Positions 18,015 to 63,197 of a stretch of DNA of 64,000 nucleotides are shown here, in pieces. The stretch's first letter is position 1. Every line of letters begins with the position of its first letter. The DNA is from Dactylellina haptotyla. Lineage: Eukaryota > Ascomycota > Orbiliomycetes > Orbiliales > Orbiliaceae. The position numbers were made by a program, and so were the translations under genes. The notes beneath the pieces are model-generated. The model was not told the origin of the DNA. It did no database searches and was given only the letters and a program-made list of their open reading frames with translations. The stretch lies in assembly GCA_031310005.1 (NCBI GenBank), contig CM062385.1:1364001-1428000 (forward strand). Direction: 5' to 3'.

Positions 18015-21000
18015 ATGGCCACCCCAGCTGCTGCCAGCGATGCGGTTACTCGTGTATTTTCGGACTTGCGGAATAGGTAGTTATCTTGCAAGCTGCGTGG
18101 GATTCGGCATAGAATATATTTCGGTCGGTCCGAGAGGTCTATAACTCAGTACCTCACTAATCAACCTTGGAATATTCTTAGTAAAACAGAAGACACTAGA
18201 CAAAAAGCGGCCGATGACCTAAGGTCGATGTTGGTCATTAGCCAGCGAGGTTGGCTTGCTCTCCTACCACTCATTACTATATGCTTTCTTCTGACTAAGG
18301 GAAATAAAAAAAACTAGAAATGCCAGCTGAGGCATTTACCAGATTCAACAATGACATTAACAAACGAATATTCGAAATGATCCATAGCAACGATACATCA
18401 GACAAGATCGGAGGCATCCTTGCTCTCGACCGCCTGATAGATTTTGATGGGGATGACTCGATGCAGAAAACCACTCGTTTCGCCCATTATTTGAGAAGCG
18501 TGATTAGAGGCAACGATACCGCTGCCATGGTATTGGCCGCAAAATCGCTTGGAAGACTTGCGACACCCGGCGGTCCACTGACTGCAGAACTAGTAGAGAG
18601 CGAGACTAGGCAAGCACTGGAATGGTTGCAAAGTGACAGACAAGAGAACCGAAGGTTTGCTGCCGTATTGCTTTTGAAAGAGCTAGCAAGGAACTCCCCT
18701 ACTCTTTTTTATACCTATGTGCCCCAGATACTCGAATTGCTGTGGGTGGCTCTTCGTGATTCCAAGGTGCTTATACGAGAAGCGGCTGCTGAGGCTCTTT
18801 GTGCGTGTTTGGAAATCTTATACCAAAGAGATAGTCAGCTACGGTCACAGTGGTATGGTAAGATTTTGGAAGAAGCTCAACATGGCTTAAAAATTGGGAC
18901 AACAGACGCAATCCACGGAAGTCTCTTGACATACCGAGAGCTCCTGCTCCGAGCTGGCATGTTTATGCATGAGCGCTATCGGGATGTCTGCGAACTTGTC
19001 CTTAAATATAAAGACCACCGAGATGTACTGATACGAAAATCTGTTGTAACCTTGATACCGATTCTTGCCGCATATAACCCAGACGAATTTGTCAGCTCTT
19101 ACCTGCATCGTTGCATGATGCATCTGCAATCTCAATTGAAGAAGGAGCGGGATCGGAACGTGGCTTTCGTTGCCATCGGTCAAGTAGCCATAGCTGTGGG
19201 TAGCAGCATGAATCCTTATCTCGAGGCGGTACTTCAATGTATCAAGGATGGGTTATCGAGCAAAAGGTATGCCTCGGAAGCCGTTCTTCTAACAACCTTT
19301 ACGGTTTTGCTAATCAGTTGTTATATTGTAGCCGGCGAATACCAGTCGAACCGGCTTATTTCCAATGTATTAGCATGCTTGCTACCGCCGTCGGATTAGC
19401 TTTGACAAAGCATATTCAAGAACTGCTTTCGCTATTATTCAACTGCCCTCTGAGCGATTCTCTTACACAAGCATTAGTGGATCTTGCTCATTATATCCCC
19501 CCGTTACTTCCACAGATACAAGAAAAGCTATTGAATATGCTTAGTCTTGTTCTAAGTGGTAGACCTTTTAAACCATTGGGGAGCCCAGCAGAGCAACTCA
19601 GTGCTCAACAGACTCTTAAGGAAGCCCGCGAAAGTAGTGGGGGGGAGCCGAAAGACTCTGAAATAATATTAGCATTACACACGTTGGGTAGTTTTGATTT
19701 CACTGGTGAGAATATCTCGGGCGTTTTCTTTAGGTTCTAGTGCTAATATATTTCTTAGGCCGTATTCTCAATGAATTTGTTCGAGATTGTGTCATAAAGT
19801 ATGTAGAGGATGATAACCCAGAGGTCCGAAAAGCGGCGGCACTTACGTGCTGTCAACTCTTTGTACGGGACCCGATATGCTACCAAACAAGTAACAATGC
19901 TATCCAAGTTGTGGGCGATGTTATGGAAAAACTTCTCACTGTTGGAATTGCTGATCCTGGTAATGCGTAACATCGATATATTACTGTTATGTACCTGCTA
20001 ACGTTTCCGGCAGATGCGGACATCCGAAAAACGGTACTCGATTCACTTGACGCACGGTTCGATAGGCATTTGGCACGGGCTGAAAATGTTCGAACACTCT
20101 TTTTGGCGTTAAATGACGAAATCTTTACAATACGAGAGTCTGCTATCACCATAATTGGCAGGCTAACCGCCCATAATCCTGCGTATGTCATGCCATCGCT
20201 TCGAAAGTCGCTCATACAACTCCTTACAGAGCTGGAGTACTCTACAGTCGCGCGAAACAAAGAAGAAAGCGCAAAGCTGCTAAGCCATTTAGTATCAGCT
20301 GCTCAAAAGCTCATTAAACCATATGTGGACCCTATCGTAACAGTTCTTCTTCCAAAAGCATCAGACCCAAGCGCAGGTGTTGCTTCAAGTGTGCTTGGGG
20401 CGCTTGGAGAGCTTGCCACTGTTGGTGGAGAAGACATGGTTCCGTATATACCACAGCTCATGCCCATCATAATAGATACGCTACAGGATCAAGGTTCATC
20501 TTCTAAAAGAGAAGCTGCTCTTAAGACTCTTGGGCAACTCGCAAGCAATTCAGGTTATGTTATTGAACCTTATATGCAATACCCATATTTGCTCACCATC
20601 TTAGTGAACATTGTCAAAACGGAGCAAACAGGATATCTGAGGAAAGAAACAATAAAACTTATGGGGATACTCGGGGCCATTGACCCTTATAAACATCAGG
20701 TATCCCAGGCGCTTCGGAAGAATTTGTGAATCATACTAATGCAAAACATTTAGCTAGTTGAACAGGGGCACGAAAACCGCCCGGCAGATCAAAGTAGTGC
20801 GATTACGGATGTCTCATTGATAATGACGGGCCTGACGCCATCTAACGAGGAGTATTATCCCACTGTGGTTATAAATTCTCTTATGAATATGCTCAAAGAT
20901 CAGTCACTCAGCACACAGCATTCAGCGGTGATCGATGCTATTATGAATATATTCAAAACTCTGGGACTAAAATGCGTACCGTTCCTTGGCCAAATTATCC

Positions 21001-24000
21001 CAGGGTTTATTGCTGTGATTAGGACAAGCCAGCCAAGCAAACTCGAGTCGTATTTCAATCAGCTTAGCATTCTAGTTTCCATTGTTAAGCAACATATCAG
21101 GAACTTCCTGCCTGAGATCTTGCAATTAATTCGAGAGCACTGGCAACTAAACACCAATTTGCAAGCTACTATACTCCAACTCGTGGAAGCGATTGCTAGG
21201 TCTCTCGAAGGAGAGTTTAAAGTCTATCTGGCGCAACTATTACCACTCATGCTTCAAGTTTTAGAAGCAGATAACTCTACGAGGAGGATTCCGACCGAAA
21301 AAGTATTGCATGCTTTTCTGGTTTTTGGAACCAATAGCGAGGAATACATGCATTTAATCCTCCCCGTTATAGTTCGCTTATTCGAAAAGACTACTCAACC
21401 AGTCACTGCACGGAAAGCGGCTATCGAGACGATCGCCCGACTTTCACGAAAGGTCAACCTGTCCGATCACGCTTCTCGTATCATCCACCCACTCGCTAGA
21501 GTGCTACAAAATGGAACACACGAGCTTCGGATGTCTGCTTTGGATACTCTTTGTGCCCTGGTTTTCCAGTTAGGGCAGGACTATGCCCACTTTATACCTA
21601 TGATAAATAAGGTTCTATAACTCGACCGTCCTCAAGATGCTCGCCGCTGACTATAAAATCTTGTCTTCGTGTAGTACCTCGTACAAACGAAAACTCAACA
21701 CTCTAACTATGAGCTTCTTGTCTCGAAACTTTTGAAAGGGGAGTCTCTTCCTCAGGATCTTAACCCGGACGAAATGTAGGACGACATATTCCCATTTCAC
21801 TTTGTATCTAGACTCACCCAACGTGCGCAGGTTTGGTGAGAAATATGATGAAGTGCTGATACCGGATACCCATTCGAAGAAGCAAACTGTGAATCAACAA
21901 CACCTAAAAAATGCTTGGGAAGCCTCTCAACGATCTACGCGAGAAGATTGGCAGGAATGGATCAGACGTTTTAGTGTTGAGCTCCTGAAGGAATCTCCAT
22001 CACACGCACTTCGTGCCTGCGCTGGTTTGGCGGGCGCCTATTACCCTCTCGCAAAAGATCTGTTCAACGCTGCATTTGTTTCCTGCTGGGTTGAGCTTTA
22101 TGATCAATATCAGGTATCTCATAGTATAATAACCTAGTTCCATACGAATTACTAACATGAAGTTAGGAAGAGTTGGTTAGGTCCATTGAGTTGGCTCTCA
22201 CCTCACCCAATATACCCCCGGAAATATTACAGATATTACTGAATCTAGCGGAATTCATGGAGCATGATGATAAGGCTTTGCCTATTGACATCCGTACTCT
22301 AGGGAAATACGCCGCAAAATGCCATGCGTTTGCGAAAGCGCTACATTACAAAGAGACCGAATTCCTACAAGAGCCTCAAACAAGCACCATTGAAGCTTTG
22401 ATTAAAATAAATAATCAACTACAGCAATCTGATGCCGCAATCGGCATACTTCGCCGTGCGCAGCAGTATAACGATGTCCCTCTTAAGGAGTCTTGGTTTG
22501 AAAAACTACAACGATGGGAAGAAGCGTTAAAGGCCTATCAACTTCGTGAATTGGATGAACCGAATTCATTCGAAGTAACTATGGGGAAAATGAAGTGTTT
22601 ACATGCTCTTGGCGAATGGGATCAGTTATCACAGCTTGCCCAAGAGAAATGGACTCATGCTACACACGAAATGCAAAGAGCAATCGCCCCTTTAGCTGCT
22701 GCCGCCGCTTGGGGACTAGGACAGTGGGATATAATGGATGACTATATAAGTGTTATGAAACATTTATCTCCAGACAGGTCGTTCTTTGGAGCCATTTTAG
22801 CCCTGCATCGAAACCACTTTGATGAAGCTACGTTGCACATCGAAAAGGCGCGCGAAGGCTTAGACTCAGAACTAAGCGCCCTCGTTGGGGAAAGCTATAG
22901 CAGAGCTTACAGGTATTCATGTCCTACTTTCTACTGGTTAACAAATGAGGCATTCAAAGCTTAACGTATCCTGTTCTTTATATTAGTGTCATCGTAAGAG
23001 TACAGATGTTAGCAGAGCTGGAGGAAATTATCACCTACAAACAAAGTTATGACCACCCAGAAAGGCAGGATACTATGAGGCGAACCTGGATGAAGCGGTA
23101 AGCTTCGGAACCTTCGCTATTATATTAGCGCGTCTAATGATCTATATAGGTTACAAGGTTGTCAAAGGACTGTTGAAACTTGGCAAAGAATGCTGAAGGT
23201 CCGAGCCTTAGTAATATCGCCAAAAGAGAACATGGAAATGTGGATCAAGTTTGCGAATCTTTGTCGCAAATCCGGAAGGGTCGGATTAGCGGAGAAATCC
23301 TTAAACTCATTGTATGATGTTGAGGATGGCGTGCTACTTGCACCCACTGATCCCCGTGTCCCACCACAGGTGGCTTATGCACGTTTGAAGTACCTTTGGT
23401 CGATTGGAAACCAGACAGATGCTATTTCTAGTCTTGTTGAGTTCACCGACAGGATCTCTAAACAGGTTGGCCCGAGCATCACGGACCCAAATACGCAAAC
23501 GCAAATACCACCTAATTCAGCTATAGCAACTTCTCCCACGCTTCCCAGTCAAACGCTTGAAGACCTGTCACGCCTTCTAGCTCGATGTTATCTCAAGCAG
23601 GGCGAATGGTTAGTTGACTTGAATAAAAACTGGTACTTAGGAAATGCGCAGGAGGTTTTACGATCCTATTGGCTGGCAACCCATTTCAATAAAGACTGGT
23701 ATAAAGCCTGGCATGCCTGGGCGCTTGCAAACTTTGAGGTCGTAACGAATCGAGATTTGAGAGAAGTATCCTCATCACCTGATATGCTCAATAATCATGT
23801 TGTTCCGGCAGTTCGTGGCTTCTTCAAGTCGATATCGCTTTCAGCTGGTAGTTCGTTACAGGACACCCTGAGACTTCTCACGTTGTGGTTTGCCCATGGA
23901 GGCCATGCGCAGGTAAACGCTGCTATGACTGAAGGGTTTGGGGTCGTCAGCATTGATACTTGGCTGGCTGTGATCCCTCAGCTTATCGCTCGCATAAACC

Positions 24001-26237
24001 AACCCGATCCTGTTGTTCGACGTTCCATTCACCAGTTATTGGGTGATGTTGGCCGCGCTCACCCCCAAGCATTAGTTTTCCCGTTTACAGTTGCTGCGAA
24101 GTCCCAGCATTCTCGGCGCCAAAAATCTGCGTCTTCTCTAATTGAAAACGTAAAAACTCACAGTGCTGCCCTTGTTGATCAGGCCGCCCTTGTCAGCCAA
24201 GAGCTGATAAGGGTTGCTGTTCTTTGGCATGAACAATGGCACGAAGGGCTGGAGGAAGCGTCTCGATTGTACTTTGGTGACCACAACATCGAGGCAATGT
24301 TTGCTACTTTGGAGCCGTTACACGAAATGCTAGAAAAGGTGAAAAGATGTTCCCTCTGTTTGACTCCGTCCTTGCTATTTTGGTTAATCGAAACATATTT
24401 AGGGCCCCGAAACATTGCGAGAAATATCTTTTCACCAGGCCTTTGGACGTGATCTCCACGACGCCAGAGACTGGTGCAATACCTTCCGGAGGACTGGAGA
24501 CGTAGGTGACCTAAATCAAGCCTGGGATCTCTATTATCAGGTATATGGATGCAAATTACTCTCCGAATTGTGATATTGGCTCATTGTTTTAAAGGTTTTC
24601 CGCAAAATTACGAAGCAACTACCTCAATTAAATACCCTGGACTTGCAATACGTGTCTCCTCGGCTTCTAACTGCAAGAGATTTGGACCTCTCAGTTCCAG
24701 GTGAGTGCGAAAGTCATGTCCTTGGTTAGCTTGGAGGGAGCCTTGAAAAATAATTTGCCACCCTGCTAGGCACATATCAATCCGGTCGCACTATCACCAA
24801 GATCGTTAGCTTCGATTCGGTATTCACAGTCATATCTTCAAAACAACGGCCTCGTAAGCTCTCTATAAAAGGTAGCGACGGAATTATGTACCAATATGTC
24901 TTGAAAGGTCTGTTTTATCCTCCTGATAGTCCAATATATATGCCTAATATCTATTCTCCATCTAGGCCACGAAGATTTGCGGCAAGATGAGCGTGTTATG
25001 CAGCTTTTTGGACTCGTTAACACCCTTCTCTCCGTTGATTCCGAATGTTTCAAAAGACACCTTAATATACAACGTTACTCTATTATACCGCTGTCTCAAA
25101 ACTCCGGTTTGATGGGATGGGTTCCTCACAGCGATACTCTACACGTTTTGATTCGGGAATACCGCGAGAGTAGAAAAATACTCTTGAATATTGAGCATCG
25201 TATAATGCTTCAGATGGCCCCCGATTACGATAATTTAACCTTAATGCAAAAGGTGGAGGTATTCGGCTATGCGCTCGATAATACAACCGGGCAAGACCTT
25301 TACAGGGTACTTTGGCTAAAAAGTCGAAGCTCGGAAGCATGGCTTGACCGAAGGACAAACTATACCCGTTCTTTGGGGGTAATGTCAATGGTAGGCTATA
25401 TACTTGGGCTAGGAGATCGCCATCCATCGAATCTGATGCTTGATCGAGTGACGGGCAAGGTTGTCCATATTGACTTTGGAGATTGCTTTGAAGTCGCTAT
25501 GCACCGAGAAAAATACCCTGAGAAGGTGCCTTTTCGTCTAACTAGAATGCTCACGTATGCTATGGAGGTGAGCAATATCGAGGGGAGCTTCAGAATTACT
25601 TGTGAGGCTGTGATGCGAGTTCTGAGGGACAATAAAGAATCCTTAATGGCAGTTTTAGAGGCTTTCATGCATGACCCTTTGATGCATTGGCGTTTAGGAA
25701 ATCGTGAAAGTCCATTGGACTCCGGAATATCAGGGGAAGCGAGTCAAGGTATGAACCCGTCTAAAACCACTATATATAAGTACTCATAAGCTGTAGATTT
25801 AACCAAGGCGTCCAATACTTTAGCTTCTACACTTGAACTTCCATCCAGAGGGCCACGAATCAAACCGGAGGCTTCTGCCAATGGATCCACTGGATATCAA
25901 TCAGAAACCCAAAACACAACAGAAGACCAAAATCAAAATGCCCGGGCACTTGCCGTGCTCAGCCGTGTGAAGGACAAGTTAACCGGTCGCGATTTCCGAC
26001 CTAATGAAGAGCTAGCCGTACCAGATCAGGTCGACAAATTGTTGCAGCAAGCAACATCCCTCGAGGTATGGCTCGAGTTCGCCCATAAAGTTATTTTTTA
26101 CTCTTACTAACTAACCATTTGTTTTTTAGAACCTATGCCAGCTGTACGTTGGATGGTGCGCATTTGTAAGTTGCAACCCTGGGATCAATATTTTTAATGG
26201 AATATTTTGCTGATTCAGGTCATTTTCTTAGTGGTAA
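18015..26237 (+). CDS. tor: target of rapamycin (TOR) serine/threonine kinase
   Basis: This is the TOR PI3K-like kinase, the catalytic core of TORC1/TORC2 that couples nutrients to growth. Nineteen exons are inferred: 18015-18076, 18182-18249, 18318-19266, 19332-19705, 19759-19959, 20014-20699, 20754-21611, 21675-21775, 21831-22113, 22167-22912, 22987-23097, 23150-24338, 24403-24540, 24595-24700, 24770-24907, 24966-25748, 25797-26065, 26130-26165 and 26232-26237, all in phase, giving 2367 residues. Order: N-terminal HEAT repeats, FAT domain (from about exon 9), FRB domain near 1840-1935, kinase domain with G-D-R-H-P-S-N and H-I-D-F-G-D near 2150-2175, and a C-terminal FATC. The FRB keeps E-E-A-S-R-L-Y-F and A-W-D-L-Y-Y-x-V-F, the residues rapamycin-FKBP12 contacts, so sensitivity is predicted. 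A single copy is seen here. The last exon encodes only Trp and the stop. Confidence 0.96.
26166..26231 (+). other. tor: last TOR intron with tandem acceptors
   Basis: The intron starts GTAAGT and has two AGs, at 26217-26218 and 26230-26231. Using the second joins ...G-W-C-A-F to a TGG codon and TAA, giving the conserved TOR end G-W-C-x-F-W. Using the first would instead add ten unrelated residues after Phe. Confidence 0.75.
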
Positions 26238-28882: not shown

Positions 28883-31800
28883 TTAACTGATTGCTGGAAA
28901 TTCACTCAAGGCTGTCTTTCCCAACCTTAACTTCGTATCGGTCATTTCGAACACATATTTCCCTACCGCAAAGCCTGCAATTAAACACATTATTCAAGCC
29001 TAGTACGGAATATGTTACTCACCTAAATGCTCTACTCCTTCCATAACTGTATATTCAGCTGAAGCCTCCAATAACCTTTCCGTCGGCCACATCTCGCCAG
29101 TTATTAATTCAAGTTTTGTAGGCTTGCACAAGATACGTGAGAATGCATCCTTTAATTCATAACATGTTTGGAAGATTTTGAGCCGACCAATAAGATACAA
29201 CCCGAGACGAGCTCTGGATAATGCAACGGTCAATCTTCGTAAATCTCTCAAGTATCCAACACGGTTCGTCCGGACCAAGGAAACGATGACATCTATGCGA
29301 AATTAGCAGGTTTTATAGACGCGGTCCCACCTCGTAAACTTACAATCGTTTTGTTCACCTTGAAACTTATCTATGGTTGTGATATGCGCTGGCGATCCGA
29401 ATAGTTGATTTTTAGCACAACGATGATTTATTATATCTCGTATGAGGGCGCGCTGGCCTGTATAGCTTGCGAGGATGGAAATTTTGCTGGCTGGATATCC
29501 AAGAAGGCGCATATATTGGAAGAGGGCTACCGCATATTCGGCTTCGCCAAGGTTTTGGATAAAATACGGTGAAGGCTCCTGTTCCCCATGGCCTCTAAAA
29601 TCTCCAACATCGATAAATTGGAATTCATGTCTAAACCCGGCATTTGCTCGAAGGAACTCCTTTTTCTCGTGTAGATAGGAGAGATCTCCAAGATTGGAGT
29701 ACCTCCAACTATACAATGATGCGATGCTCGGGCGTGCCCGGCCTTGTTTATCAAGTATTACTTGGGGAACACCTAGTCGTACAAACCGGGCGAATAAACT
29801 TTGTTCCATGTTAGAGAAGTAACGAAGAGCCGAATTTTGTATTACTGGGGAATTCTGCAGATGATCACCGCATAAGATAATTCGTTTCAATTGTGTGTTG
29901 GAGTTTAGAGGGTTTTGTAATGTCAAAGGAATAAAGGCTTCAATCTCAGTCATCTGAGCGGCTTCTTCCATAACTACATTGTCGTATTGAAACCCTTGTC
30001 GAATTATATCCTCCCTCTGCATGTAGGAAATTAGTGATGAAAATAATCTTTGGAAATTATGAGATTTACCTTGATGGCAGCATAGGTAGAGGTCATTGCA
30101 ATGATTCGAGCTGTTTTAACGAGAAGATAATTGGCTTTATCTCGCCCATTTCGCAAAATCTCAAACGGCATCAAGTCATCCAATTGCATAAAAATCTTAG
30201 ATATTTGATCGAAACTGTGTTCGGCGGCGTCCAGTGTGAGCTGGAAGGAAGCCCGTGCCTGCAATGGCGCTTGTTTTGTACTTGTAAAGTAAGCATCTTA
30301 GAAAAGTTAGCAAACTTCCCGAATTATGGTCATAGACGAGAACTCACGAAACGGGAAGGACGTTAAGATGTTGTCAATCGTTGGTAACCGCACCACCTTT
30401 TCTTTGAATGCTTCCCAGAGCGGTTTGATGTACACCTGATTAAAATACGATGCAGTTTCACAAGAATTACCATGAGCCCCTGGCGCGCCGACACTTGCAG
30501 CAAGTATTTCCACGTTCTGAAGAAGTTTAGTTCGAATATCCTAACGAATAACGTTAGAAAACTATATTGAAAGACAAGAAAAGCCGTTACCCGTACAATA
30601 AGGGACTCAATTCTGCCAAATTTACCCGAGTCAGGAGAGAATTGATGAGTATCGTCTTCTCCATGGCCTAGTCGTAGAAGATGACGCTCGTCAATATTCC
30701 TTTCCACAATCTTCTGGAAAAGCTGATTTAAAGCTTGATTACTATGCGCTATCACAAGAGTTCTTTGATTTGGAAAATTATGGTATATGTTAGAGATGAT
30801 TTGTGTGGCCACATCAGTTTTTCCAGTTCCAGGGGGCCCAAGGACTAGTGTTAGCCCAGTATTAGTTCCAGAAAAGATTGCTTTCACTAAATTCGATGCC
30901 GTTAGATGAAGTATTTTGAGTCTGGGAGATTGGCTGTGACTAACCCTGTGCCCCTGTGTATCTAATCACATTACTTAAAGGCCCCGATTTTGATTTTTCC
31001 AACCATTTTGAAGTCGCCTTAGAACCGGAAACTTCATAAGACGATTTTGAGCCACCCTCCTCGTCTGGAGTTCTTGACTGGTGATCGACTCTCACTTTCG
31101 TGAACATAAAAGGAGGGCTTATATCACTAGATGGGGCTTGGATATTTATATTGAGCTGACAAACGCTTATTAGGGTTTCTTGCAGGTGCTCGATATTGTG
31201 AAACGTCTCCCCAAAATCTATTGTTTCCGGAACAGGGCGGATGTTTGGAAAGCAGGCTTCTGTGGGATCACCACATCCAAGGAAGGTGTCTCGAAACCAC
31301 TCAGGAATTGGCGTTGCGGTCTCTTGGATCAATGATTGGATTGATGAAAGAATAGACTTGAAATTGTTGCCCTTAACTCTGTGTTAATTTCGTGATCTTT
31401 GGCCTAGTTTGCATGGGAGTTCGGGTGACCTTACAACTCCCTTCCTACGAATAAGGACGTTGAGGGATCCATATATATCGCTAGGATCCTCGTTATTCTG
31501 TACATCATTCTATAAATTCATTAGTATTCGATGGGACAGTGCATAGGTTGGACTCGACGGTTTTACCATGTAAGCTTTACGGTCTAAACGAACGTGAAGT
31601 TTTTTATTTCCCTGAGCTCGTGATAGATTTGAACCTTGTTTATCTTCTCCGAACACTTGTAAGATTTCGGCGCACCGTAGAAACTGGACCTCGATGTTCT
31701 CAAATGTAGAACTAGCACGCATATGTGCCCGATTCGCATCATCTTTGGCGTGGACACTCAGAAGAAACACCACATCATCAGAGCGGAGAGATTCCCATTC

Positions 31801-33969
31801 TTTTCTAGTATCTGCGCTCATTTTGTCGAGGCAAAGATCTAGTTCGGCATGGACATAGAAAGGATAGGACTCTCCAACTCTTGGAGGAGCTACTTCTAAT
31901 ATACTGTTTGTTGTAAGTAGTGATCGTTTCACGGAGGTTTCAAGAACATTTCTTACGAAACTTTATTAATTTGGAGGGCCATTTTAGTAACTCCGGTAAA
32001 TATTGTGCTACCGTTGTGGAGTTTTGGCCGGAGTTTCTTTAGACTATCTTGCAGGTCGCGTCGTATTTCGTGAAAAGACTCGGCTTTATAAAGGGAGAAT
32101 ATTCGCCACAAGAAATCGGTCGGCGATAAATATTGTATATTCAGTTTTGGGACTGGAATGGGATGTAATCCGTTGTAGCTATTGTTTGGAAGTGGCCCAT
32201 TGAATAAAGATTCCTATGTAGTGGAAGCGCATGTCTATCAGTAGAGCTTAAAGAAAAGAAAACGGGATTAGTGGTTTACAAAATACCTCATTCGGGAAGA
32301 CAGAAGCGCTTTTGACGATTTCGGCGGGACCGGGGCGCCAAGAAAAGGCCTCTACAATAGTGCACAACATGAATTGCCGGTTTACTGACTGCGAAACACC
32401 CTGTGGGTAGCTTTGGCGGAACGACAGTCGTTGGTATAACTCAGCAAGCTCTTTATCATCAAGTGACGAAATCTGGTGTTCAAGGTCTTCTTTCTTAGAT
32501 ATTGAAGCATAGTTTGTCAAACCTAGCACTGTTAGTTTATTTCTCGAAACTTGGATCGATTCTCTCTGTAACTTGGCGATATTTTGGCGATATTTTGAAT
32601 TCGACATGGCGTTTGTTTCATTCAAGTCGGTCGCCGTATCAATGTCGAAGTAATAATAATGTTCGAATAGAGCAACTAAGTTACGGAAAAGCTCGTTACT
32701 CTGCGAGGTAAACATCGACGATAGGCGTAGACATGGGATTATTTGGAGGTCTTCTAAGAGACCGTTAACATATCGCCGTGTCGGCAACTGTGAGAGGAGA
32801 TCTGTCAAGAATTCCACCATTCGCCCCGCGTATAGGAGTAATTCTGTGGCTGTATATTTAGACATTAGCCACTCTAATTGAATTCCCTTAAGTGCATTCT
32901 CACCGTTATAAACGTCATTGTTTCTGGTATTGAATAATGTAGAGATAAAATCCAGAACAAGCATATGAAGCCATGAACGCTCAAACTTCAATCTAGCCTG
33001 CGCTTTCTGGTCAGCGATAGAGAATTTCTTTACGGCACCTCTCCAGGCTTTCTTGAAGAGCGGATTCCCCCCAAGTTTAATCTCCTTCGCCTCTTCAGAA
33101 TGTAAATTCTGCCATATCCCTATCGAGACAAGAGGAGCACATTCCTTTCTGACGATTGGATTATCCAATGACTGGAAAGCCATTGATATAAAATACAAGA
33201 TATATGTTCGGGAAGTAAAGGTAAGAGAGTTTGATAAAGACATTATCAGGACTCGACGAAAGAATGATGAAAATGCGTTTGTATCATTTTCAAATATATC
33301 TAACGACATAACAATGGTGTCAGTAGATCTGAATATACGCGGAAACCGCCATTCAAAACATGAGATGGCCCAGGTACTTACCCCAAACATAAATGGTTTC
33401 TCTTCTCTTCACCGCTACCATCATTACTAACGATATGACCAGTTCATCTGGAGAGTCCTCGTTGTAATTGGGCCAGAGGTATCTAAATCAAACCGTAAGA
33501 TTATACCAGGTTAGGAAAAAAAAAAAAAAAAAAAAGACTGCCTCAAGACGCTTAGGGAATATTGTGCATTTTGGAATCGTGGCAGTTTTTGTTGGTTGCT
33601 GGTATAACATCTCAATAAACAAGGCATGTGATAATTTCACCCAATAAAGTGGGTTGTGAATTTCAGTATAGAGCATAGATATGTCACGTGTAGGATATTC
33701 GATATTTGAAGAGGAAGCAGAATTGATAGAAGAACTTACCGTTCCACATATTGAAGGGTTTCAAGAAGCAGAAGGCTTCTTTGATTGAATGATTCCTGTT
33801 CCAAGGCGTTGTATATTTCTCTCACTACGCTAGTAGAAAACCGAGTGTATGCATCTTCTCTGAGCCAATTTGATTTCGCGGTCGTGGCGTATATATTGCT
33901 GCCCTGAAGTTCAGAGAGCGTCGGTTCGTAGTCCTCGGCTAGTGGTAAATAAGAATCTTGCTGGGTCAT
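28883..33969 (-). CDS. cwf11: intron-binding spliceosomal helicase Aquarius (Cwf11)
   Basis: This is an SF1 RNA helicase of the activated spliceosome that contacts the intron upstream of the branch point. Thirteen exons are inferred on the minus strand: 33969-33740, 33482-33382, 33299-32287, 32213-31957, 31903-31567, 31509-31435, 31371-30945, 30886-30591, 30540-30348, 30296-30070, 30016-29344, 29292-29023 and 28974-28883, giving 1396 residues. The N-terminal third is the helical-repeat region, with L-E-x-L-Q-Y-x-E-R-Y-L-W-P-N-Y and later A-F-Q-S-L-D-N. The beta region carries L-N-I-Q-Y-L-S and V-A-P-P-R-V-G-E. The helicase core has [11 protein letters not shown] near 830, M-E-E-A-A-Q near 1070, then N-M-E-Q-S-L-F-x-R-F-V-R-L-G and G-R-A-R-P-S. 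A start at 33969 is preferred, but the frame is open upstream. It shares a 213-bp promoter with hpr1. Confidence 0.93.
33516..33535 (-). repeat. poly(T) tract in first Aquarius intron
   Basis: Twenty A on the plus strand, thus T in the transcript, about 30 nt before the acceptor of the 257-nt first intron of the Aquarius gene. It may serve as the polypyrimidine tract. Confidence 0.85.
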
Positions 33970-54311: not shown

Positions 54312-57300
54312 ATGGTTACTCCAGACGCCCAGAACATGCACAATTATCTTGGGTAGGGCGCGCGTTCTTCCTCTTTATATATATTATTTCGAATAATCCT
54401 GATGCTCAACGATATCCAGAGGGGTTTCTTTTGTTTCTCTAGTGGCACCGGATGATGATCTATTCTATGAAACCATCACGTATTATACGGATCTTGGATT
54501 CACGGAGACCTTAGTTTACGACAGAGCCAACCCGCATTCTAGTGAACACCAAGATGATCTTTGCTTCCTGAGCGATAAAGAAACTTGGCTGCATAGTGAT
54601 GCAGAGCACGAAGGCCAAGGGACTGCCATTACTATTAAGGTTCGTCTAGTAACAACTGCGAAGATTGAAGAGGTAGTTATCAGACAGAGGAAACACCGCC
54701 GGAGCTCGACTCTCTTTCCTCCCACTGAAATCCGGGACTGGAGGGCGGCAAAGCAGGCACTTGTTCTGTTCACTCCTAAGCTTGAAAATGTCATCAAACT
54801 GCTCAAAGAAAAAGGTTATGCGTACCAAGCGCAGCCTAACAACCACGCACCCTTCGAAATATATACCTACGATCCATTGTCAACACTTGTTGGGTTCACT
54901 TCCAAGCCGAACCCCTTTACGACCGTCGTGAAGCCTTTACCCACACCTCAGGCGCTCCAGAAGAAATCCTTAAAAACTAGCGATACCCTGGATACCGGGA
55001 AGAAGAGGCGAAAGATCGCCGTTATGACCAGTGGTGGTGACTCTCCAGGAATGAGCGGTGCGGTCAGAGCTGTAGTTCGCACTGCCATAGCAATGGGTCA
55101 CGAGGCGTATTGTATATACGAAGGTTATGAAGGTTTGGTGCAAGGAGGAGATCTGATCAAAAAGATGGTTTGGGAGGATGTCCGCGGTTGGCTTTCGGAA
55201 GGAGGGACTCTGATTGGAACTGCACGAAGCGCAGCATTCCGTGAAAGGTCTGGTCGTCTAGCAGCTGCGAAAAATCTCATTGTCAACGGCATCGACGGGC
55301 TTATCGTTTGTGGTGGTGACGGGTCACTGACAGGAGCCGATTTATTCCGCGCAGAATGGCCTGGCCTCCTGGAAGAGTTGGTGCAAAGTGAGGAGCTTAC
55401 AAAAGAACAAATCGAACCATTTGAGACTCTTAATATCGCTGGTTTGGTAGGCTCTATCGACAATGACATGTCATCTACCGATGCCACGATAGGCGCATAT
55501 TCTTCTTTGGCACGTATTTGTCAGGCCGTCGACTATATAGATGCTACCGCAGCCTCCCATCAAAGAGCCTTCATCATTGAAGTTATGGGTCGCCACTGTG
55601 GTTGGTTGGCAGTAATGTCAGGAGTCAGCACCGGTGCAGATTATATTTTCATTCCAGAGAAACCCCCCGGTGAGGGCTGGGAAAAACAAATGTGTGACAT
55701 CATCGCACGGGTGAGTCCAAATTTCGGCATATATAATCCTATTGCTACAATCTGACTTGTGTTTACTTCTATAATATAGCACAGGAAACTCGGTAAGCGG
55801 AAAACCATTGTCATTGTCGCAGAAGGCGCAATCGATCGAGATCTCAAACCAATCACCTCTGAATACGTCAAGAAGGTCTTGGTGGATGTTTTGAAGCTTG
55901 ATACTCGTGTTACCTGCTTGGGTCACGTCCAAAGGGGTGGCACAGCTGTGGCTTACGACAGAATGCTTGCAACTTTGCAAGGAGTTGATGCCGTCAAAGC
56001 AATTGTTAATGCCAAACCTGGAAGCCCAAGCCCAATGATCGCCATTACCGAAAACAAGATAACGAGGAAGCCGTTGGTAGAGGCCGTGAAAATGGTATGT
56101 CTGTTAGAATCCGACAAAGCTACTCTATTATTACACGCCACTCGTAGGGAAGCAATAGCTTACTTATTTATGCGCGCATCAATAGACCAAGGGTGTCGCC
56201 GAAGCCATTAAGAACAAAGATTTTGAACAAGCCATGAAACTTCGAGATGCCGAATTTGATGAGTACTATCGGGCTTTCATAGCGACCACGGTAACTGGGA
56301 AAGAGAAAGATAGGCTACCCGAGGAGAAGGTTCGTAACTGGTAGTTTCAATATTTGACCCGCCTTTTCTTTTTTCATAGAAGGAAGAAGGAAAGAAGAAA
56401 AAGAAGAAGGGGCTAATGTTAGATACTAGCGCAAACGCTACGCAATCGTCCACGTCGGTGCCCCAGCTGGTGGGATGAATGCGGCTACCAGAGCAGCCGC
56501 CCTTTATTGTATAAGTCGTGGTCACCGAGCTTTTGCTATCCACAATGGATTTCCCGGACTAGTTCGCCACGATTCCGTCCAAGAATTGACCTGGTTAGGA
56601 GTTGAAGGCTGGGCTATCCGAGGCGGTAGTGAGATTGGAACGAATAGGACGGAGCCGGACGTCGATATGGGCATGGTCGCTTGGTATTTTCAAAAGTACC
56701 AGTTTGATGGATTGCTTCTTATCGGAGGCTTCGAAGCCTTCAAATCACTTTCAGAACTGAGAAAAGCACGCCAATCCTACCCGGCATTTAGAATCCCCAT
56801 GGTTTGCCTTCCAGCAACAATTAGCAACAATGTCCCGGGTACAGAATATTCCATCGGTAGCGACACTTGTTTGAATGCTTTGATAGACTATTGCGACGCC
56901 ATAAAACAGAGCGCGAGTGCAAGCCGAAGAAGAGTATTTGTGTAAGTCCTCAAAAAGACATTTACGAATTAAGAAATCATACTCACGTTTCTGGTTTTAG
57001 GGTCGAATGCCAGGGTGGCCGCAGTGGCTATGTCGCAACTATGGCAGGGCTTTCTACCGGAGCACTTGCTGTGTATACCCCCGAAGAAGGTATCAGACTA
57101 GAGACACTTATGCAAGATATCAACAAATTGCGCGAAAGCTTTGCCAGTGACCAGGGTATGAATAGAGCAGGAAAGATTATATTGAGGTGAGATTGAAACC
57201 CCTTCCTCCCTAAATATCTCTAATATTGATGAATATCCAGAAATGAGAAGGCGTCCGCTACTTACACGACCGAGATTATTGCCAATATGATCCGCGAAGA

Positions 57301-57685
57301 ATCCCAAGGACGGTTTGAATCACGAACCTCCATTCCTGGTCATGTACAACAAGGTGGCACACCATCTCCGATGGATCGTATCCGAGCGGTTCGACTTGCT
57401 ACAAAATGCATACAATTTCTAGAAACACATGGTGGCACCAAGATTGCGGTATACGAGAATCCTGAATCAGCGGCCGTAATTGGTATCAAGGGTGCCGCTG
57501 TTGTTTTCACACCTATGGCAATACTGGAGTCCACTGATACGGATTGGAAAAACCGTCGGCCCAAGCAGGCATACTGGCGCAATCTTAGGGGGATTGTTGA
57601 CGTTTTGTCCGGCCGCAAGGATACTTTCGATGATGTGGATGTGGATGAGGAGACCGAGGATGTCAGTTTGGAGTCGTCCCTATAG
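54312..57685 (+). CDS. pfk1: ATP-dependent 6-phosphofructokinase
   Basis: It catalyses the committed step of glycolysis, fructose 6-phosphate to fructose 1,6-bisphosphate. Eight exons are inferred: 54312-54352, 54420-55710, 55780-56094, 56186-56329, 56430-56941, 57001-57186, and 57241-57685 as the last coding part, giving 977 residues. The catalytic half shows G-G-D-S-P-G-M-S-G from about 219, [14 protein letters not shown] at 312, G-S-I-D-N-D-M with the catalytic Asp, and M-G-R-H-C-G-W. The second, regulatory half begins [19 protein letters not shown], the usual duplicated arrangement. About 200 residues precede the first kinase motif and contain a glyoxalase-like stretch (Y-Y-T-D-L-G-F, then A-L-V-L-F-T). 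Seven exons are listed with certainty. The first exon and its start are the least certain part. Confidence 0.93.
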
Positions 57686-58881: not shown

Positions 58882-60481
58882 ATGTCTGCCAGGCTTGCAA
58901 CAGCCCGGCTGCTCTTTCGACCCCCCCACATCGCATTCAGTGGTTCCGCAGGGGTCCATCGTAGATCAATTGCATCTATAGCTCGTGCTTCATGCCCACC
59001 CAACCGTGGTATCAGGGCGATACCGAAATTCAGCAGCCAGCAATCTCGAGCGCTAGCTTCAGCTTCCACTGGCGATGTTAAAGAATATACCGTTCGTGAT
59101 GCTCTAAACGAAGCTCTCGCTGAAGAGCTCGAGGCTGATTCCAAAGTTTTTATATTGGGAGAAGAGGGTAAGTATTGCGAGGGAGCATTCCATTCAAATT
59201 GCGTTTAATCCAAACCCATCTTAACCACTCTCTAGTTGGTCTCTACAATGGTGCGTACAAGGTTACCAAAGGTCTCTTGGATAGGTTTGGGCCAGATCGC
59301 GTGAGTAGCAGAATGATTTCCTTAAAATATGCATGAAAGACAAAATTGATTAATAGCGGAATATGCCATTAGGTTATAGATACTCCAATTACAGAATCCG
59401 GTTTTGCTGGTCTGGCCGTCGGCGCAGCTCTCGCAGGATTGAAACCCATAACAGAATTCATGACCTGGTATGCAGCTGAGTTTCTCCTAACTAATACGAA
59501 ACCGCATGTTCTGACCGCAAGGCCGAAACAGGAACTTTGCAATGCAAGCTATCGACCAGATCATAAACTCAGCAGCTAAGACACACTACATGAGCGGAGG
59601 TATCCAGCCTTGTAACATCACGTTCCGTGGACCTAATGGGTTTGCTGCTGGCGTTGCAGCTCAGCACAGATGAGTTTTAAATGCTCCCATCATTCACCTG
59701 TGAAGCTTAATCTGGCTAACATTCCCTGCCGGTTTCTACCCAGGATTATACGGCATGGTATGGCTCGATCCCGGGTTTGAAAGTTGTCAGTCCTTGGAGC
59801 TCTGAAGATGCAAAGGGCCTGCTCAAAGCCGCTATAAGGGACCCTAACCCCGTAGTTGTAAGTGCCGGTCTAATTATATGTCCGGTAGACCTACTGGCGT
59901 TTCTGATTATTGTGATGTGTAGGTCCTTGAAAATGAACTTCTATATGGACAATCGTTCCCAATGAGCGCTACTGCTCAGAAAGACGACTTTGTTATTCCG
60001 GTAAAACCCCAGTAACGAAAGTTTAGAGTTCTTGAAACGCAATAAGAAGACAAACTAATAAAGAACCCTACAGTTTGGGAAGGCCAAAATTGAGCGTGTC
60101 GGCAAAGATATTACCCTGGTCTCGCTCTCCCGTTGTGTTGGACAGTGTTTAAATGCCGCCGAAAAATTAAAGTCGGAGTACGGCGTAGAAGCGGAGGTTA
60201 TCAATCTTCGATCTATCAAGCCCATGGATGTGGAAGCAATAGTGAAATCAGTCAAGAAAACAGGTAATCTGATAGCTGTCGAGAGTGGGTTTCCAAGCTT
60301 CGGGGTTTCTAGCGAGATATTGGCGTTATCTATGGAGTATATGTTCGACTATCTAGATTCTCCAGCCCAAAGAATCACCGGGGCCGAGGTCCCTACACCT
60401 TATGCACAAGGTTTGGAGGCCATGTCATTCCCTGATGAGGATTTGATCTTTAGGAAGGCTGCTCAACTTCTACGTGTATGA
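58882..60481 (+). CDS. pdb1: pyruvate dehydrogenase E1 component subunit beta, mitochondrial
   Basis: This is the beta subunit of the thiamine-diphosphate E1 enzyme that decarboxylates pyruvate in the mitochondrial matrix. Seven exons are inferred: 58882-59167, 59236-59300, 59373-59467, 59532-59669, 59740-59857, 59923-60000 and 60074-60481, giving 395 residues. The first about 60 residues are rich in R, A and S and lack acidic residues, a classic presequence. Landmarks are [60 protein letters not shown] and L-E-N-E-L-L-Y-G. The Q-H-S-Q-D stretch is only obtained by removing an intron with AT and AC ends. The C-terminus with D-V-P-T/E-V-P-T-P-Y-A fits. Confidence 0.95.
59670..59739 (+). other. 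pdb1: AT-AC intron in pdb1
   Basis: The 70-nt intron begins ATGAGT and ends TTTCTAC. It separates Q-H-(AG) from (C)-Q-D-Y and restores the conserved A-A-Q-H-S-Q-D-Y-T-A-W. A GCTAAC branch-like site lies about 20 nt before the end. No GT-AG pair keeps the frame: the obvious AG at 59742-59743 would shift it, and reading through meets TGA at once. The donor is not the U12 type (ATATCC). Confidence 0.8.
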
Positions 60482-61882: not shown

Positions 61883-63197
61883 TCATTCTGGTATCTGGGA
61901 AGGGTATAGGAAACCTTCGTTACTACTTCCGGGTGGTCCCATCGATTCCATTGCATCCGTTAATGCCCTGTCCTTTCCTGAGCTTTCATGGCTTTCGCTG
62001 TCATCTTTGGCTTTGAGACCGGTTTTAGAACCGGTTTTCACCATCGCGGTCACTTGAGCTCTATCGATATTCCCAAGTGGCCTTGGTTTCCCCCACATTA
62101 TTCGCAGCGGGCACCCTGCAATAATTGCCTTCCCCTGACAAGATTCTGCAGCCGCCTCCGCTCCCGCACGCGTTTGAAAATTTACAAAGGCGCAACGAGA
62201 GTGATGGACACAGACGATGGAGCGTATCTGGCCGAATGCTGAAAAAAAAGTACGAATGGAATGTTCTGCGAGATCGTCTTCCACGCTATAGGAATTCGGT
62301 TGTCAGACAAGGCTTAAAATATCAATGTGGGATGAGGGTTTTGCGTACCCTAGTAAGAATAAAGAAGTGATGCTTTTGTCTGCCGGAGGTTCAACATCTT
62401 GAGGACCGGCGGGGAGTTGTGCGTGGGAAGGGAAGCTGCGGCCAGGTCCCCTGCCTCCGGTCCGGTTCCTATCAACCATGCTTCCTCTTGTTCGAATGGG
62501 ACCCGGTCCAGTTTTAGTTGCAATGCCCGCTTGGGTGTCGTCTCTGTTCCTCCGAGGTCTTTTGTAGTATGGTTCACTCGCCGCAAGTCTCTTCAATAGA
62601 TCCCGGGCAGCGGAGTCGGTTTTTTCGTATTCCTCGGGGATTTGGCCGTCGGTGAGATGGTTTTCTGTATTTTGGGCGTAATATTGTTTGTTTATTTCGG
62701 ACGAAGGGCCTTGGGCGACAAGTTTAAGGGCGGCATCACGAACAACGATGGGTAATCCGAACGAGAGGTCGAGCATGCAGCATTGGCAACAATTTTTGAG
62801 TCGGGCACATGTTAAGCAGATCTAAAGCGAAGAGCCCACGTGGTGTTAGCGACGCAGAAGGAAAGGAAGACAGTGAGACAGGAGCAAGAAGATTTCTCAT
62901 GGCCACTGAGTTACGTACATTTGTTTTCTTGTATCTGCTGTTGCGATCTGGAAGCCATTTGAAGACGGTGAAAGGGCGAGTGCAAATCTTGCACTCGGCG
63001 CCGTAGTTCTCCTTAATCATTTGAACGTACGGGTTCTCGGGAAGACAATTTTCGCAGACTGACGGGAAGTCGGTTGACTCGGAACCGGACTGTATGAAAA
63101 TCATCGCCAAGAGATTAATATTCATCCTACGGCAGTAAGTTCAAGCAAAGGAGAAGAAGGATATACAAACCCTGTTGATATCAGCTTTGGGAGGCAT
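61883..63197 (-). CDS. slt11: pre-mRNA-splicing factor Slt11 (Ecm2/Cwf5/RBM22)
   Basis: This is an NTC-related spliceosome component that contacts U6 and the catalytic centre. Four exons are inferred on the minus strand: 63197-63171, 63089-62919, 62821-62349 and 62285-61883, giving 357 residues. After M-P-P-K-A-D-I-N-R come three cysteine clusters: [19 protein letters not shown] and [14 protein letters not shown], the expected zinc-finger region. A basic R/G-rich linker follows ([12 protein letters not shown]), then an RRM from about 210 with S-L-F-L-L-G-V as RNP2 and R-C-A-F-V-N-F as RNP1, closing with [11 protein letters not shown]. The C-terminal tail is low-complexity. It is divergent from the gene at the right edge. 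Confidence 0.93.

Follow-up and report, generated by a model that had tools for sequence, protein, structure and literature searches.

The fourth intron of the pyruvate dehydrogenase E1 beta gene in this stretch of Dactylellina haptotyla DNA is very probably a U2-type AT-AC intron, i.e., an intron of the major spliceosome (probability about 0.9). It lies at 59670-59739 of the window, which means here the whole 64,000-nucleotide stretch that was analysed. An earlier note had proposed an AT-AC intron in this gene, and its coordinates and bases were found as described (70 nt, phase 2). The U2-type reading is considered the best one because no minor-spliceosome snRNA passes its cut-off in the genome, U2 and U6 are present, and the donor can pair with U1 at 8/9 positions. 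The intron is anchored by protein homology in a conserved housekeeping gene, in a genome that apparently has the major spliceosome only.

The pyruvate dehydrogenase E1 beta gene

The gene model comprises the following features.

58882-60481, + strand: pyruvate dehydrogenase E1 beta gene, 7 exons, 395 aa, start codon to stop codon (spliced model plus the ORF end of the last exon)
59168-59235, + strand: intron 1, GT-AG, 68 nt
59301-59372, + strand: intron 2, GT-AG, 72 nt, donor GTGAGT
59468-59531, + strand: intron 3, GT-AG, 64 nt
59532-59669, + strand: exon 4, ending ...GVAAQH + AG (bases 1-2 of the Ser codon)
59670-59739, + strand: intron 4, AT-AC, 70 nt, phase 2, sole exact junction in 14,210 pairs
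59740-59857, + strand: exon 5, starting C (base 3 of the Ser codon) + CAG GAT TAT
59858-59922, + strand: intron 5, GT-AG, 65 nt
60001-60073, + strand: intron 6, GT-AG, 73 nt

Five of the six introns are GT-AG (64-73 nt), and intron 4 is the exception. The reading frame is open over the remainder of the spliced model. The predicted product scores 515.8 bits against NCBIfam NF008854 over residues 55-389 of 395, above the cut-off of 454 of this curated model, which places it in the pyruvate dehydrogenase E1 beta family. Both transketolase-type domains, Pfam PF02779 and PF02780, are present, and human PDHB (1ni4_B) matches the product with an E-value of 1.6e-132. When 701 bases of the gene were searched as a DNA query against the 39.8-Mb, 11-contig genome, the single place found was the gene itself. 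No close second copy was thus found by this DNA-level query.

The junction and the conserved peptide

With a slash at each exon border, the junction reads ...GCTCAGCACAG/ATGAGTTTT...GGTTTCTAC/CCAGGATTAT..., or, with shorter flanks, CAG/ATGAGT...GGCTAACATTCCCTGCCGGTTTCTAC/CCA. A search of genome contigs yielded at least 565 confirmed relatives, and the best 80 of these at least 565, mostly labelled alphaproteobacterial, were analysed. The junction is covered by all of these best 80 bacterial relatives. His and Ser at the junction are present in 80/80 of them, and the next residue is Gln in 76/80 and His in the other four. The Gln count is possibly inflated, as the relatives were found with six peptide patterns that included QDYTAWYG, whereas none of the six contained His and Ser at the junction. 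Human PDHB also carries AAQHSQ at this place and aligns without a gap. Among other structures, a 1um9 chain has HSQ and 1ik6 has HSN.

All donors from 59600 to 59739 were combined with acceptors up to 59799, at a length of at least 30 nt and with any terminal dinucleotides (n=14,210). The exact conserved 16-residue peptide is restored by one pair out of 14,210, the AT-AC pair with the junction 59669/59740. Judged by the predicted translation, AT-AC is the sole pair of ends that yields the conserved peptide exactly, as the earlier note had argued from the reading frame. DNA and protein together therefore indicate an intron that begins with AT and ends with AC, as expected of a U2-type AT-AC intron. 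When any residue was allowed at the Ser position, five of the 14,210 pairs passed, none of them GT-AG or GC-AG. When Ser-Gln could be replaced by 0-3 stop-free residues, 19 pairs passed, again with no GT-AG or GC-AG among them. When Ser-Gln was free and stops were permitted, nine pairs passed, including one GT-AG pair (59674/59743), which contains a stop. By our own arithmetic, with equal base frequencies, AT, AC and GAGT would fall together at a given junction with a chance of about 4^-8.

The stop-containing GT-AG pair deserves attention.

59674-59743, + strand: shifted GT-AG pair, 70 nt, in frame, product H-R-stop, donor matching the U1 complement at 2/9 bases (3/9 with G-U)

The spliceosome might take GT 59674 and AG 59743, in which case the gene would be broken or would give a non-productive (poison) isoform. 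The shifted pair equals intron 4 in length, is canonical, stays in frame and ends with a CAG acceptor. Indeed, the presence of GT and CAG 4 nt 3' of AT and AC, with the shifted pair in frame, speaks against the main reading. Nevertheless, splicing in this register is judged highly improbable. Its product would stop two codons after the conserved His, about halfway through the conserved enzyme, and its donor, TGA/GTTTTA, hardly resembles the U1 complement (counts above). A broken gene also agrees poorly with the open remaining frame and with the lack of a second E1 beta copy in the DNA-level query.

A second canonical solution is splicing from GT 59653 to AG 59743, which keeps the frame open and gives a protein without VAAQHSQ. 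This pair has almost no claim to be the true one. It removes the stretch bearing the His-Ser found in 80/80 of the best 80 of at least 565 relatives, and its donor GGC/GTTGCA fits the U1 complement at 2/9 bases, or 4/9 with G-U. The statement of the earlier note that no GT donor is available was nonetheless too strong, since GT 59674 and GT 59653 both pair in frame with AG 59743. Likewise, the frame shift it ascribed to CAG 59741-59743 holds for the AT donor (74 nt) but not for GT 59674.

The unusual ends could also be sequencing or assembly errors that conceal a GT-AG intron at the identical place, each end being one base off the canonical form. This explanation is given very little weight. 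It requires two independent substitutions at exactly the first and the last base, and the two supposed errors would yield precisely the known functional alternative pair. A substitution at 59670 alone is insufficient because the in-frame AGs for this donor, 59790 and 59799, remove the conserved stretch after His-Ser.

Splice signals of intron 4

The signals of the AT-AC intron are listed below.

59670-59675, + strand: 5' splice site ATGAGT, with the exon CAG able to pair with U1 at 8/9 positions
59716-59720, + strand: branch-like site CTAAC, putative branch A 59719, 20 nt before the last intron base, role inferred
59734-59739, + strand: 3' splice site TTCTAC, with the competing CAG 59741-59743 ending four bases beyond

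The donor CAG/ATGAGT would form seven Watson-Crick pairs and one G-U pair with U1, with a mismatch at +1. The five GT donors of the gene reach 6-7 Watson-Crick pairs, or 6-8 with G-U, so that the AT donor equals the best of them in the number of U1-pairing positions (8/9 with G-U). Bases +3 to +6 are GAGT, identical to those of intron 2 (GTGAGT). These observations agree with the earlier description of the donor as GTGAGT with its first G changed to A, and ATGAGT, with G at +5, is a U2-type donor context. Past the branch-like A, AG first occurs in the CAG at 59741-59743, which ends four bases 3' of AC. Taken together, the donor, the branch-like site and the length of intron 4 support a U2-type assignment. 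RNA structure has no role in the explanation: folding around intron 4 gave a z-score of -0.45, and 61/200 shuffles folded at least equally well.

Spliceosomal RNAs of the genome and the U12 alternative

AT-AC ends are also found in U12-type introns, and intron 4 additionally has an element ending in CTAAC. Removal by the minor spliceosome was therefore considered, and it is regarded as extremely unlikely. Instead of ATATCC and CCTTAAC, intron 4 has the donor ATGAGT and the branch element GGCTAAC (consensus as given in an excerpt of PMC3033335). According to the part of PMC10639083 at hand, convincing minor introns are absent from Ascomycota and Basidiomycota.

The snRNA complement points the same way. 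None of the four minor families passes its Rfam cut-off in the genome. U12 gave three near-matches (best 20.6 bits, cut-off 53), U6atac ten (best 21.5 bits, cut-off 33), U11 one (19.9 bits, cut-off 39) and U4atac none. The second U6atac near-match overlaps a U6 gene. In comparison, U2 has five and U6 two genome matches over cut-off. U1 is itself under its cut-off of 69.5 bits, with three strong matches at 60.2, 53.1 and 50.5 bits; two of these candidates, L019 and L020, printed in gene orientation, start ATACTTACCT. Six near-match loci (L002-L006, L029) and six U1/U2/U6 loci were rescanned with the full Rfam set. Of the near-match loci, L006 gave the only match, to U6. The other rescan returned U2 for L013 and U6 for L023 and L024, with 0/3 U1 loci over cut-off. 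A genome without minor-spliceosome snRNAs is thus likely on these searches but not proven, because, as seen with U1, divergence can leave an snRNA under its cut-off. No Rfam family exceeded its cut-off in a scan of the whole window.

The earlier argument that the GCTAAC branch-like site and the lack of ATATCC favour the major spliceosome holds up, with the signals of U2 type and the minor snRNAs below cut-off. Membership in the U12-type class is disfavoured: intron 4 has the terminal dinucleotides in common with U12-type AT-AC introns, but an ATATCC donor, a CCTTAAC branch element and minor snRNAs over cut-off were not found.

The U6 copy at L023:1441-1620 (G000 contig C3) seems split by an mRNA-type intron at about L023:1470-1536. 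This putative intron has the form GTAAGT...GCTAAC...TTACAG, lies directly before CGATACAGAG and contains GTTCGAATCC, which is similar to the pol III B box. Among fungal U6 genes, that of fission yeast is known to have an intron with a B box inside it. The second U6 copy, L024 (G000 contig C1, minus strand), retains ACAGAGAAGATTAGCATGGCCCCTGCAC, whereas its loop and 5' part are unlike those of the first.

Proposed mechanism

Intron 4 is probably removed by the ordinary splicing machinery. U1 would bind CAG/AUGAGU despite the mismatch at +1, U2 would bind at the CUAAC region, and U6 would pair with the intact GAGU. During the second step, a non-Watson-Crick contact between the first A and the last C may replace the usual G-G contact. 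Such an A-C contact would choose AC over the CAG ending four bases downstream. The ancestor may have been a GT-AG intron of the form CAG/GTGAGT...TAG/C, in which both end bases changed.

The rule linking the first and last intron bases, attributed to Parker and Siliciano by the earlier note, was confirmed second hand: in an excerpt of PMC6726248, Parker and Siliciano 1993 is cited for the finding that AT-AC ranks second in efficiency, behind GT-AG, in yeast. Because CAG and GT lie 4 nt beyond AC and AT, the E1 beta locus could serve as a clean natural experiment on the mutual recognition of the first and last intron bases. It is conceivable, though very unlikely, that both registers are used as a switch, with a productive AT-AC form and a stop-making GT-AG form 4 nt downstream at both ends. 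If this were true, the choice of register would set the amount of pyruvate dehydrogenase, and the locus would put the first-base/last-base rule to a natural test by competition, with AC against CAG four bases away.

Comparison with known AT-AC introns

Introns of the U2-type AT-AC kind have been described before, ascomycetes included. Intron 4 is a convincing new example, and its mechanism is not new. In excerpts of PMC2831892, U2-type AT-AC introns with G at +5 are reported, such introns are proposed to become trapped, and conversion of an old U12 intron is put forward as a route of origin. Human SCN4A intron 21 (AT-AC type II, U2-dependent), treated in the same text, has AT-AC ends and G at +5 as intron 4 does. 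For sodium channel introns, A at +4 or T at +6 is said there to improve recognition, and intron 4 has both. Unlike SCN4A intron 21, intron 4 belongs to another gene and lineage, the minor snRNAs are below cut-off in its genome, and its splicing is a prediction.

Further cases come from organisms in which the minor spliceosome is lacking or probably lacking, as here. AT-AC introns of C. elegans are described as probably U2-spliced (excerpt of PMC3033335). For Fusarium graminearum, PMC3577648 covers 2,604 introns in 842 genes that were selected because their models were problematic or because they showed alternative splicing. All junction types apart from GT-AG and GC-AG, AT-AC being one of them, account for a combined 0.31% of these introns. 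Sanger sequencing confirmed seven genes with non-canonical sites there, and the excerpt does not specify an AT-AC member among them. Among fungal SnowyOwl gene models (Aspergillus niger and others), AT-AC reached 0.03% (PMC4084796, in part). According to PMC6726248, yeast can use AT-AC without a minor spliceosome, and SUT635 uses it beside GT-AG. SUT635 is a noncoding transcript that employs both kinds of junction, whereas intron 4 sits in a conserved metabolic gene with a single peptide-restoring junction.

Other surveys give similar or higher values. About 430 AT-AC introns in about 2.3 million fungal introns (0.02%) were computed from the counts and percentages in Table 2 of PMC7072748, and the excerpt of PMC6176087 gives 0.09-5.19% of used junctions, depending on the species. 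From the surveyed frequencies, a few AT-AC introns would be expected in a genome whose introns number in the tens of thousands. The part of PMC7072748 consulted also places minor-spliceosome RNA genes in one fungal species only, Cutaneotrichosporon oleaginosum, and draws no conclusion for fungi. No prior report of intron 4 itself was found in the literature searched, a set with most subscription papers outside its coverage.

Search for further AT-AC introns

A coding-potential scan for more AT-AC introns covered 264,000 bases, namely the window and 20 regions of 10 kb. In the loosest setting, a dinucleotide pair had 14.1 candidates on average; AT-AC had 11, and the top value, for GT-AG, was just 39. 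Three stricter settings gave 4, 4 and 2 AT-AC candidates against means of 5.1, 3.1 and 1.5. Intron 4 itself fails the loosest setting, with an upstream margin of 0.02 where 3 is needed; exon 4 is called nearly as well in another frame. The scan is without power, and the AT-AC finding rests on protein homology. A gene finder restricted to GT-AG would mis-model the E1 beta gene.

Other genes in the window

Twenty ORFs of the window were scanned with Pfam, and eukaryotic genes for TOR kinase, eIF3c, Aquarius and THOC1 were among them. Phosphofructokinase exons (PF00365; window 54403-57685, + strand) lie directly upstream of the E1 beta gene on the same strand, and the two are adjoining sugar-catabolism genes. 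The phosphofructokinase has a yeast-type N-terminal domain. TOR kinase-like exons at 18308-25786 (+ strand) contain HEAT repeats and mTOR, FAT, FRB and PI3/PI4 kinase domains. Exons resembling Aquarius, the spliceosomal intron-binding helicase, occupy 29306-33408 (- strand), with PF16399 at 32251-33408 and AAA domains at 29306-30965. Their sharing a window with the AT-AC intron is probably a coincidence. An RRM protein is encoded at 61883-62302 (- strand), about 1.4 kb downstream of the E1 beta gene. In Pfam it matches RRM families only, and we take it to resemble the splicing factor RBM22/Slt11.
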